The notes under the pieces: generated by a model
What the model was told of the DNA's origin: nothing
The model's input: only the letters and a program-made list of their open reading frames with translations
The model's database searches: none
Shown: one piece after another, positions 2,504 to 12,802 of the stretch
How positions within the stretch are numbered: position 1 is the stretch's first letter
Layout of the letters: each line of letters opens with the position of its first letter
Assembly (NCBI GenBank): GCA_028866945.1
Contig: JAGWHE010000010.1
Location: forward strand, 1-34,897
DNA: 34,897 nt
DNA from: Nitrososphaerota archaeon
Lineage (GTDB): Archaea; Thermoproteota; Nitrososphaeria; Nitrososphaerales; Gagatemarchaeaceae
Direction of reading: 5' to 3'
Position numbers and translations under genes: made by a program

Positions 2504-3604
2504 CTACTTCCACCAGCCGAGGTCTTTCGGGGTGTCGGTGATTGCGACCCCTTTCTTTCCTTCGATCAGCACGTCGTCCTCTATCCTGACCCCGAGTTTC
2601 CCTCTGAAATATGCCCCCGGCTCCACGGTGAAGCACATGTTCGCCCCCAGCTTCTCCGTGCCTCCCTCAATTATGTACGGTGCTTCGTGCACTTCGAGAC
2701 CCAGCCCGTGCCCGGTCCTGTGGAAGAAGTTCCCGCCCATTCCCACCTCCTTCAGGACCTCCCTGGCAGCGGAATCGACCGACCCCACCCTCACCCCGGC
2801 CCCGGCCGCCGCCACCGCGGCCTCCTCGGCTTCAAGCACCCTGGCATAGACCCGCTCGAACTCCGCGGAGGGTCCGATACAGAACGTCCGTGTGACGTCG
2901 GCGTAATATCCCCGGTATGTCGCCCCGACGTCAATCACCACGCTCTCCCCTCGCGCAATCTTCCTTGGAGAAGGGAGGTGATGGGGGTCGGCTGCCATGG
3001 CGCCGGACTGCACGAGCATGTCGTCGACCTTCGTGGCCCCCTTCTCGTATATCATATCGGCTGCGGCCCTTGCCACCTCGAGCTCCGACGCCCCCTCTCT
3101 GATGAGCCCCGGGAACCCCTCGAACGCCCTGCTCAGGATGGCGCCAGCCTCCTTCAGGAACCCCACTTCGGCTTCATCCTTGGTCTCGCGCAGGCCCTGG
3201 AGGACGGCCTCGGCCTCGACCGCCTTCGCAGCAGCGCCCTTCATCAGCCTGTCGAGATACAGGAAAGGCACCTTCCCCTCAAATCCCCACTTCCCTTTCA
3301 CCCCTGCCCCCTTGGCGGCAGACGAAATCGCCCTTCCTGGGCCTTCAAAGTCGGTCCACTCATGCACCTTAATCGGTGTTGGCGAGTCTCTGTATGGACC
3401 TGACTCGAGGGTCGGCGCCACCAGGTGGACGTCCCCCTCGCTCGGAATCAGAAGCATGAACGGCCTCTCGAGCATGAGCGAATCGACTCCGGTGAAGTAC
3501 CTCATGTTCGGCCCGGGTACGATGGTGACACCGGACAGCCCTGCAGCCAGGAGCCCCTTCCTCAGCTTGCGGAGGCGCCTCCCGTAGTCGACTTCTGTCC
3601 TCAT
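2504..3604 (-). CDS. M24 family metallopeptidase (Xaa-Pro peptidase type)
   Basis: A 366-residue pita-bread-fold peptidase. The N-terminal creatinase-like domain (about 1-135) is followed by the catalytic domain with all five dinuclear-metal ligands: D225 and D236 (VIDVGATYRGYYADVTR), H299 (HRTGHGLGLEVHE), E328 (TVEPG) and E342 (RIEDD). This fits aminopeptidase P or prolidase, which cleave the bond before proline in peptides. Cytoplasmic, no signal peptide. The start is ATG at 3604, about 30 bp from a TATA element shared with the divergent proline dehydrogenase gene. That partnership suggests linked release and oxidation of proline. Prolidase and aminopeptidase P cannot be separated by reading alone. 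Confidence 0.9.
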   Translation of the reverse strand: MRTEVDYGRRLRKLRKGLLAAGLSGVTIVPGPNMRYFTGVDSLMLERPFMLLIPSEGDVHLVAPTLESGPYRDSPTPIKVHEWTDFEGPGRAISSAAKGAGVKGKWGFEGKVPFLYLDRLMKGAAAKAVEAEAVLQGLRETKDEAEVGFLKEAGAILSRAFEGFPGLIREGASELEVARAAADMIYEKGATKVDDMLVQSGAMAADPHHLPSPRKIARGESVVIDVGATYRGYYADVTRTFCIGPSAEFERVYARVLEAEEAAVAAAGAGVRVGSVDSAAREVLKEVGMGGNFFHRTGHGLGLEVHEAPYIIEGGTEKLGANMCFTVEPGAYFRGKLGVRIEDDVLIEGKKGVAITDTPKDLGWWK

Positions 3605-9999: not shown

Positions 10000-11010
10000 C
10001 TAGAGCCTCGTCACGATCTTGTAGAAGTCGCCCAGCCTCGTCTGAAGGCCGTAGCGCTTCTCGTTTCCCCGCATGTACAAGAAGATCGACAGCAGGGTCG
10101 GGAGCATCCTCGTCAGGCTGAACCTGTCCTCCACCTTGGCCTTGATGAACTCGTAGACCTTGGCGTAGACCGCGAATTGGTCCAGGACCGCGCGCCTGTA
10201 TCCTTCGTTGTCGCCAAGGTGGTCGACATAGAGGTTGACGCACTGCATGCTCGGGATAATCCCCTCGCCGAGCATGGGGTACACCGTGCCGATGGACTCG
10301 CCCACGCCGGTCACCTTCCCATCGAAGAACGGCTCCATGAACTTCGGAGGAGTGACCCTTACCGGCCTCCCAATCCGCTTGACGACCTCGCAGTGGTATT
10401 TCTTCGCGAACGCGTCGAGCTCATAGCGATACCTCCCGCGGAGGTCGCCCGCGCCCACGTGCGCCATGCCGTCGCCCAGGGGGAAGTACCACCAGTACCC
10501 TGTGAGACCTGGGTAGGGTTTGATCACGAAGTCGTCGTAGGGGAGCTCCTTGGACTTCACCTGATATTCGAGCGAAGGGATCAGGAGGTCCTCGCTTACC
10601 TTCGGGAGGAGCGACCGGTGCATCCCAGTCGCGTCAACGACGGCGTCGAAGTCCTTGAAGTTCCCGTCGGCCTCCTTGATTTGGGCGCCCCAGTGGATCT
10701 TCTTCCCCTTCAGCATGTCCTCGGTGAGCCTGTGCTTGTCGTAGGTGACGAGACCTCTGAGCGGGATGCTGATCTCCTCGTCGCCCAGGTCCACGACCAT
10801 GTTCTTCCCCTTGTGCAGGACGTAGTCGTCGAAGTTGAAACCAGCCTCCTTGACCAGGTCGGAGATGAAAGGCTGACTCGTCCCCCAGGCGCAGACCGTG
10901 TACCAATTCTTCTCTGTCTTCGCTTCGAAGGCCTCCGCCTCGACGCCGGAGGGAAGGCGGTTCAGCAGGTAGGCACCCGCCACCCCTGTCCCAACCACCG
11001 CTATCTTCAC
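10000..11010 (-). CDS. Geranylgeranyl reductase family FAD-dependent oxidoreductase
   Basis: A 336-residue flavoprotein with an N-terminal Rossmann dinucleotide motif (VVGTGVAGAYLLNRL), a VVDATGMHRSLLP segment in the FAD-binding core, the catalytic-region motif GYWWYFPLGDGMAHVGAGD, and the second FAD contact VTGVGESIGTVYPMLGEGI. These are hallmarks of geranylgeranyl/digeranylgeranylglycerophospholipid reductases, which saturate isoprenoid chains of archaeal lipids. It is shorter than the other family member in this window (18468-19940), so it may act on a different isoprenoid, such as a quinone side chain or a carotenoid. GTG start at 11010, with a TATA box about 40 bp upstream. First gene of a two-gene unit with alaX. 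Confidence 0.82.
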   Translation of the reverse strand: MKIAVVGTGVAGAYLLNRLPSGVEAEAFEAKTEKNWYTVCAWGTSQPFISDLVKEAGFNFDDYVLHKGKNMVVDLGDEEISIPLRGLVTYDKHRLTEDMLKGKKIHWGAQIKEADGNFKDFDAVVDATGMHRSLLPKVSEDLLIPSLEYQVKSKELPYDDFVIKPYPGLTGYWWYFPLGDGMAHVGAGDLRGRYRYELDAFAKKYHCEVVKRIGRPVRVTPPKFMEPFFDGKVTGVGESIGTVYPMLGEGIIPSMQCVNLYVDHLGDNEGYRRAVLDQFAVYAKVYEFIKAKVEDRFSLTRMLPTLLSIFLYMRGNEKRYGLQTRLGDFYKIVTRL

Positions 11011-11098: not shown

Positions 11099-11108
11099 CT
11101 AATATACG
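11099..11108 (+). promoter_or_regulatory. TATA box for the citrate synthase gene
   Basis: CTAATATACG, centred 29 bp before ATG 11133. It supports the start that includes the N-terminal extension. Confidence 0.6.
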
Positions 11109-11132
11109 GAGGCTATTGAATATAATGCACCG

Positions 11133-12380
11133 ATGCCCAGACCGCAGAACCCCGACGTCGACTTCACCACCGTCAAGCTATCGAAGGAAACCCAAGCGAA
11201 GCTCGCCGCCCTCGGCAAGTATGGAGAGACCATGGACCAGATCATCCAGCACCTCACCACCCAGACGAAAGGCCTCGAGGACGTGGTCGCCGGCAAGAGC
11301 TCCATCTGCTACATAGACGGCCACGAGGGCCGCCTCCTTTACCGCGGGTACGACATCGCAGACCTTGCCGCCCACTCGACGTACGAGGAGACGACATACC
11401 TCCTTTGGAACGGGCGACTCCCGACCTCCCTCGAGCTCAAGGCGTTCACGGAGGAGCTGGGTTCGAAGCGCCCCATCCCCCGCGAGGTAGTGTCCATCCT
11501 CACCACCCTTCCACAGAACTGTGACACCATGGACGCCCTCAGAGTCGGGGTGTCGGCGCTTGGAGTCTTCGACGACCCGATGTACTCCCAGCAGGAGAAG
11601 GCGATGTCAATCGCGTCCAAGATCGGTACGGTCGTGGCGGCCATCCACAGGCACAAGCACGACCAGGACGTTATCCCACCCAGGGAGGATCTGTCATTCG
11701 CGTCCAACTTCCTTTACATGGTGACAGGGAAGGTGCCCTCAGAAGCTGACGCCAGGCTGATGAACGTCCTGCTTATCCTGCACGCCGACCACGAATTCAA
11801 CGCCTCGACCTTCACCGCGAGGGTCATCGCTTCCACCCTCTCAGACATGTACTCCGCGATAACCGGAGCCGTCGGAGCCCTCAAGGGTCCGCTCCACGGC
11901 GGGGCCAACGAGAAGGTGGTGGAGATGACCAACGAGATCGGGACTCCGGACAGGGTGGACGCCTATGTCAGGGCCAAGCTGGCGAGCAAGGCGAAGATCA
12001 ACGGGTTCGGCCACAGGGTCTACAGGACGATGGACCCGAGGGCAAGGATCCTCAAAGACATGGCCGAGCACTTCGTCCGGACGGAGAAGGAGAAGCAGTC
12101 GCTCGAAGTGATCGACCGAATCGAGGCGATCCTGCTCAAGGAGAAGAACCTCCACCCCAACGTCGACCTATTCTCAGGGCTCGCGTTGAACCACATCGGG
12201 GTGCCCAGCTATCTCTTCACCCCCGTCTTCGCTGTCGGGCGCACGCCCGGCTGGCTCGCTCACGTCCTAGAGCAGTACGCAGACAACAGGATAATCAGGC
12301 CTATTTCGGACTACGTCGGTCCGCAGCTGACCGCATACGTCCCCATCGAAAGGCGTTCGTCGTCGGGGGTGAGGCCTTGA
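11133..12380 (+). CDS. gltA: Citrate synthase with an N-terminal RHH-like extension
   Basis: A 415-residue enzyme condensing acetyl-CoA with oxaloacetate. Catalytic residues are intact: H255 (LHGGANE), H294 (GFGHRVYR) and D345 (NVDLFSG), plus LHADHEFNAST at 216-226. Residues 1-45 are not part of the usual fold. The stretch TTVKLSKETQAKLAALGKYG followed by ETMDQIIQHL looks like the strand-helix-helix of small archaeal ribbon-helix-helix/VapB-like proteins. The canonical enzyme begins near residue 49 (DVVAGKSSICYIDG). The TATA box places the start at 11133, so the extension is probably translated. The gene overlaps the downstream CBS-domain gene by 4 bp. Confidence 0.93.
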   Translation: MPRPQNPDVDFTTVKLSKETQAKLAALGKYGETMDQIIQHLTTQTKGLEDVVAGKSSICYIDGHEGRLLYRGYDIADLAAHSTYEETTYLLWNGRLPTSLELKAFTEELGSKRPIPREVVSILTTLPQNCDTMDALRVGVSALGVFDDPMYSQQEKAMSIASKIGTVVAAIHRHKHDQDVIPPREDLSFASNFLYMVTGKVPSEADARLMNVLLILHADHEFNASTFTARVIASTLSDMYSAITGAVGALKGPLHGGANEKVVEMTNEIGTPDRVDAYVRAKLASKAKINGFGHRVYRTMDPRARILKDMAEHFVRTEKEKQSLEVIDRIEAILLKEKNLHPNVDLFSGLALNHIGVPSYLFTPVFAVGRTPGWLAHVLEQYADNRIIRPISDYVGPQLTAYVPIERRSSSGVRP

Positions 12381-12802
12381 GGGTCGAGGCCCTGATCAAG
12401 CGCAGCCCGGTGACCATCAGCCCAGGAGCCACCATCCGTCAGGCAGCCGAGGTGTTCGCCCGCGAGAAGATAGGGCTCCTCGTGGTCGCGTCGTCCGTCA
12501 CTCCGGTCAAGGCCCAGGCAGTAATCTCCGAGAGGGACGTCGTCAGGGCGGTGGCGAAGGGAACCCCTCTGACCGCCCAGCTCGAGGTCGTCGCGTCCAA
12601 GAAGCTCATCAGCGTCAAGCGGTCTGACAGGCCGTCCAAGGCCGTCCGCCTGATGATGGACAACGGGATACGCCACCTGATCGTGGAGAACGACGACGGC
12701 ACGCTGTTCGGGGTCATATCGATACGCGACTTCTTCCGCGAAGCCAAACTCCTACAGTCATTCCTCAGAGACGAGTCTGAAGACGTCCACGGAGTCGACT
12801 AA
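12377..12802 (+). CDS. Tandem CBS-domain protein
   Basis: A 141-residue protein made of one Bateman pair. CBS1 (about 1-62) contains ISPGATIRQAAEVFAREKIG and AVISERDVVRAVA; CBS2 (about 65-130) contains VKRSDRPSKAVRLMMDNGIRHLIV and GVISIRDFF. Such pairs usually bind adenine nucleotides and report energy or redox state. TTG at 12377 overlaps the citrate synthase stop (TTGA), with a strong GGTGAGG ribosome site at 12368-12374, so translation is coupled. An allosteric or sensing role linked to citrate synthase is inference from this arrangement. No DNA-binding or enzymatic domain is attached. Confidence 0.88.
   Translation: MRVEALIKRSPVTISPGATIRQAAEVFAREKIGLLVVASSVTPVKAQAVISERDVVRAVAKGTPLTAQLEVVASKKLISVKRSDRPSKAVRLMMDNGIRHLIVENDDGTLFGVISIRDFFREAKLLQSFLRDESEDVHGVD

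Follow-up and report, generated by a model that had tools for sequence, protein, structure and literature searches.

The citrate synthase (CS) gene in the window, by which we mean the whole stretch of DNA that was analysed (34,897 nucleotides), encodes an enzyme preceded by an extension that resembles ribbon-helix-helix (RHH) proteins of the VapB antitoxin type, and the genes with this extension carry a tandem series of 9-bp boxes that read GTWWACCNN in most lineages and run from the TATA box to the start codon. Judged from the sequences, structure models and analogy with known systems, the extension probably functions as an RHH domain that binds DNA and represses the CS gene of which it is a part, which would make the protein an autogenous regulator of the PutA kind. 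The features of the locus are the following.

11133..12380, plus strand: RHH-citrate synthase fusion gene, 415 aa plus stop, supported by the open reading frame and by evidence of selection
11133..11165, plus strand: variable N-terminal tail, residues 1-11 (pN/pS 0.61)
11166..11264, plus strand: RHH-like segment, residues 12-44, with a predicted strand (12-17), helix A (18-28), the turn KYGE and helix B (34-44)
11262..11294, plus strand: low-confidence linker between RHH and enzyme in the AlphaFold2 (AF2) model, residues 44-54
11268..12356, plus strand: CS body, residues 46-408, from Pfam/NCBIfam models, catalytic-type residues and a structure match
11100-11107, plus strand: TATA-box-like element TAATATAC, identified by sequence, with the same or close variants in most relatives
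12377..12802, plus strand: CBS-domain protein, overlapping the CS stop by a few bases
10000-11010, minus strand: divergent geranylgeranyl-reductase-like (GGR-like) gene (weak PF22578), sharing a 120-bp intergenic region with CS family-wide

The product of the open reading frame begins MPRPQNPDVDFTTVKLSKETQAKLAALGKYGETMDQIIQHLTTQTKGLEDVV. The CS models of Pfam and NCBIfam (TIGR01800) begin at residue 46-47, so about 45 residues lie ahead of the canonical enzyme, as an earlier note on this DNA had claimed. The CS body behind them is complete, exceeding both cut-offs (PF00285, 452.9 bits; TIGR01800, 478 bits vs a cut-off of 421), and contains the catalytic-type residues His255, His294 and Asp345, the first being invariant and the other two nearly so in an alignment of 40 CS sequences. 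The whole-protein model matches archaeal CS structures with 45-46% identity; Metallosphaera Msed_1522 (6aby) and Pyrococcus 1aj8 share its body fold and catalytic-type residues, but these enzymes are only about 370 residues long and lack any unit of this kind at the N-terminus. Type II (E. coli-type) CS enzymes also bear an extension at the N-terminus, one that is beta-rich and linked with hexamers and NADH control, whereas the extension in the window is helical and RHH-like.

Sequence comparison shows residues 1-45 to be both translated and conserved. The TATA-like element lies about 25-30 nt 5' of the ATG at 11133, a spacing that would be compatible with a leaderless start at or just before this position. 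Met34, the one plausible alternative start, is unlikely for two reasons: purifying selection acts on codons 12-33, which precede it (pS 0.44-0.87 vs pN 0.02-0.35, relatives compared with the window), and L100, L105 and L106 have Leu in its place. The alignment of related CS proteins shows the extension conserved without a downstream start. Tail residues 1-11 are missing from the shortest relatives, which begin MSKVVKVS, the shortest form of the extension being MSKVVKVSEETHSKLASMAKWGESMDQVIHRMTLQT (L102). One relative, L103 (minus strand, 550-1803), has no ATG ahead of the RHH segment, and its start is probably a TTG directly after the box array.

The extension was found in 21 distinct CS sequences, including that of the window, all from one family (Gagatemarchaeaceae, group I.1c). 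When 400 genomes of the class were searched with a profile built on residues 1-99, matches covering the extension were confined to this family, where they spanned at least four genera; stricter criteria applied to 151 phylum genomes, a sample overlapping the 400, recovered the window alone. CS orthologues lacking the extension occur in two genera of Gagatemarchaeaceae, one of them Gagatemarchaeum, which belongs to the acidic-soil Thaumarchaeota of group I.1c (PMC10640624). Candidatus Gagatemarchaeum belongs to the family, and the contig of the unfused L022 recurs in the same-family genome L109. Since the unfused CS sequences form one side of a branch in the CS tree (80/76), a single gain or loss explains the pattern. 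Apart from the orthologues, the genome of the window encodes an unfused second CS paralogue, L002 (G000:C70:2711-3760, minus strand), about 38% identical, and most genomes of the same genus likewise give a second, weaker CS match. Two genomes, MAS5.bin16 (L011/L016) and YP3.bin16 (L024/L017), each contain two fused CS genes differing in RHH and promoter type; these may reflect mixed bins and not true paralogues, one genome having an estimated contamination of 8%.

The resemblance of the extension to RHH and VapB proteins, proposed in the earlier note, was upheld by profile comparisons. DUF7557 (PF24434) matched 20 of the 21 extensions, all weakly (E up to 1), and VAPB_antitox (PF02697) matched four, also weakly (best E 0.0047). 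When the extension profile was aligned by hhalign with standalone archaeal VapB antitoxins of the same family, selected as passing the VAPB_antitox cut-off, the probability reached 91% over 34 columns (P = 9.4e-7). The shared feature is the strand-helix-helix sequence pattern; the extension differs from VapB-type antitoxins in being fused to CS, which follows directly where they have a toxin-binding tail, in having no toxin gene, and in falling below both Pfam cut-offs in the window (20.1 bits vs a curated cut-off of 25 bits for DUF7557). Sequence searches of the PDB with the extension gave the MazE7 antitoxin as the sole sensible match (E 0.05-0.3), and MazE7 was also the best match of the extension profile, over the strand and helix A (E 0.05). 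The VapB antitoxin profile found the SeqA N-terminal domain first in the PDB, with TraM among the weak matches, both of which we take to be of RHH type. No second convincing copy of the extension was found as a standalone gene in the genome of the window.

At the sequence level the RHH pattern consists of a predicted strand with Lys15, invariant in 21 of 21 extensions, two helices and an intervening turn of the form K-[YW]-x-[ED], in addition to the VapB profile match. AF2 placed the helices at residues 18-28 and 34-44, apart from the CS body and loosely joined to it, which is not the arrangement of an ordinary N-terminal CS helix. The two helices of the earlier note are present in the model, while the strand it had described (TTVKLS, residues 12-17) is predicted from the sequence and does not form in the monomer models. 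Confidence in the segment was low (pLDDT about 61-71), which is to be expected when an obligate dimer is modelled as a single chain. A Foldseek search with this low-confidence model returned four matches, including VapB, HicB and RelB antitoxin entries, none of them significant (E 4-10).

The 9-bp period of the promoter array was first spotted by eye in upstream regions set side by side and then tested by self-identity of the 48 bp 5' of the start against shuffles. In the 21 fused upstream regions, self-identity at lag 9 was 0.449 vs 0.263 ± 0.015 in shuffles (z 12.2); lag 18 was also raised, and none of the other lags from 2 to 17 came near. The signal persisted in 11 diverged upstream regions (z 9.8) and in six mutually unlike ones with less than 55% identity (0.479, z 8.1). 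Examples are L104 (GTTTACCGA GTAAACCAA GTATACC ATG), L100 (TAAACCCCG TATACCGAG TAACCTCGG TAAACG) and L019 (TAAACCACG TAAACCCAG TAGACCAGC). In the window the family-level array is degenerate, the promoter alone giving P = 0.13 at lag 9, and its boxes are placed as follows.

11103..11111, plus strand: box 1, TATACGGAG, overlapping the TATA element
11112..11120, plus strand: box 2, GCTATTGAA
11121..11129, plus strand: box 3, TATAATGCA, ending 3 nt before the ATG

Five unfused CS upstream regions, in contrast, gave no signal at lag 9 (0.267, z 0.65). Four of the five (L021, L022, L025 and L108) share both the locus and the divergent GGR-like neighbour of the fused genes and for this reason serve as a matched control. 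The fusion and the array may each have a single origin, in which case their association would amount to about one or two independent events.

Sequence searches of whole genomes indicate that the array is essentially unique to the CS gene. The pattern GTWWACC-N2 repeated three times, with up to three mismatches, gave 16 hits in eight places across 12 fused genomes; six of these places, with 13 hits, were CS promoters and the other two fell inside other ORFs, while the reversed pattern used as a control gave eight scattered hits. In six of the eight genomes searched, the box string of the window lineage had exactly one occurrence, which was at CS; the reversed string gave no hits. The patterns were derived from CS promoters, so the informative part of these searches is the absence of other sites, which makes the CS gene itself the apparent target. 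The two places inside ORFs, both named by eye, were rejected as further targets: the one in an Lrp/AsnC-like small ORF (L116) and the one in a large RNA-polymerase-like ORF (L117) are attributed to chance, given the eight hits of the control. The upstream regions of the standalone VapB-like genes, read by eye, showed no clear array of similar boxes.

A further link between domain and boxes came from L016, which represents three MAGs with the same protein. For its upstream genes, CS body, CBS gene and Nuo genes, identity to L006, L007 and L014 is mostly 83-90%, while its 317-bp intergenic region has no match and its RHH codons show only weak similarity, the closest being to other lineages. The jump in identity falls at about codon 46, that is, at the domain boundary. 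The replaced piece combines a GTWWACC-type array with the matching KMVKVSEETH-type RHH, both of the type of other lineages. The intergenic region and RHH codons were exchanged as one piece (2651-3096) between conserved neighbours, and the intergenic region exceeds that of the siblings by about 200 bp. By sequence, domain and boxes appear to have moved or changed together as one cassette whose end marks the domain boundary, though simple linkage alone could also yield such a joint replacement.

Dimers of RHH proteins insert an antiparallel pair of strands into the major groove, and in AmrZ the strand residues Lys18, Val20 and Arg22 read DNA bases (PMC3325190). In a hand alignment, strand positions 13 and 15 of the extension correspond to AmrZ Val20 and Arg22 and are on this ground the predicted base readers. 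Residue 13 is Val, Leu or Met where the boxes are GTWWACC-like, and Thr in the lineage whose boxes 2-3 have changed to TATTGA/TATA types. We therefore envisage that the RHH segments, paired through their own strands and through the CS dimer, would bind the tandem 9-bp boxes that cover the TATA box and the start of transcription in their own gene. Because the array overlies these two elements, bound protein should block the basal factors, and CS in excess would repress its own gene; repression seems the likelier outcome than activation, and control may come through enzyme level or ligand state. A bolder version, possible yet doubtful, is that CS acts as its own transcription factor and flux sensor, with oxaloacetate/acetyl-CoA or the oligomer state respacing the RHH arms and so setting transcription of cs and CBS. 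The CBS gene adjoins CS in the fused loci that reach far enough, as well as in one unfused locus (L108); it is probably co-transcribed with CS, and its product is a possible co-regulated partner.

The earlier note had left open whether the extension adds a dimer contact, binds DNA or binds a toxin-like partner, and the operator-like array favours DNA. The strongest competitor, itself unlikely, holds that the extension is an RHH-like oligomerisation module, comparable to the SeqA N-terminal domain, that provides a dimer or higher-order contact for CS and binds no DNA, the array belonging to some other regulator. The related VapB-like profile does lead to SeqA before any other PDB entry, and PDB titles describe CS dimers, hexamers and larger assemblies. 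Against this, the invariant Lys occupies a predicted DNA-reading strand position, and the array accompanies the fused genes and is almost confined to the CS gene, whereas a general regulator would be expected to own other sites. It is more improbable still that the array belongs to promoters or RNA leaders in general and has nothing to do with the RHH segment. Box 1 overlaps the TATA element and the boxes are degenerate in the window lineage, as such a feature would allow, but the promoters of unfused CS genes at the same locus lack the array, the upstream regions of other ORFs show no comparable peak at lag 9 (average 0.281, vs 0.254 at lag 8 and 0.252 at lag 10), and the array is near-unique genome-wide; a leader role is further opposed by the TATA element lying about 27 nt before the ATG, which puts most of the array 5' of the transcript. 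There is very little to commend an antitoxin-like part, fossil or active, that binds a toxin such as VapC: the nearest families are indeed VapB-type antitoxins, yet their toxin-binding tail follows helix B, exactly where CS begins here, the adjacent genes are of the GGR-like, tRNA_SAD, CBS and NADH dehydrogenase types and include no PIN/VapC gene, and the operator-like array would be left unexplained. Hardly credible, finally, is a mis-annotated start with the enzyme beginning at Met34 and the codons ahead serving as a leader, which would leave the 12-residue lead typical of short CS proteins but conflicts with the selection on those codons, the Leu at position 34 in three relatives and the position of the promoter.

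For the preferred reading, DNA binding and autorepression, the closest parallel is trifunctional PutA, a metabolic enzyme that carries an RHH domain of about 50 residues at its N-terminus and acts as repressor of its own regulon (PMC5293562). The likeness is one of principle only: the enzyme part here is CS and not proline dehydrogenase/P5C dehydrogenase, the domain of life and the box layout are different, and PutA, a flavoenzyme, undergoes a switch to the membrane. In box layout the array recalls that of MetJ, whose tandem met boxes are 8-bp palindromes read by RHH dimers (title of a reference cited in PMC3274233); the CS array differs in its 9-bp period and in having CS as its apparently sole target.

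Some bacterial CS-like proteins bear a helix-turn-helix domain. In the open-access literature we found no described RHH-CS or HTH-CS fusion, and by title and abstract none of the open papers containing both 'citrate synthase' and 'ribbon-helix-helix' dealt with such a fusion. Metabolic enzymes with a DNA-binding domain controlling their own gene are rare, PutA being the textbook RHH case, and the RHH-CS fusion would be a new example of this known principle of enzyme plus RHH autoregulator, at an enzyme of citric-acid-cycle entry and in an archaeal host. The system is small, comprising a 46-residue domain and a 30-bp array, and several natural variants of both exist, including the joint natural replacement in L016. 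If the flux-sensor reading were true, a dedicated array of 9-bp boxes, present nowhere else in the genome, would let the flux entering the citric-acid cycle directly set how strongly the cs-CBS operon is transcribed.
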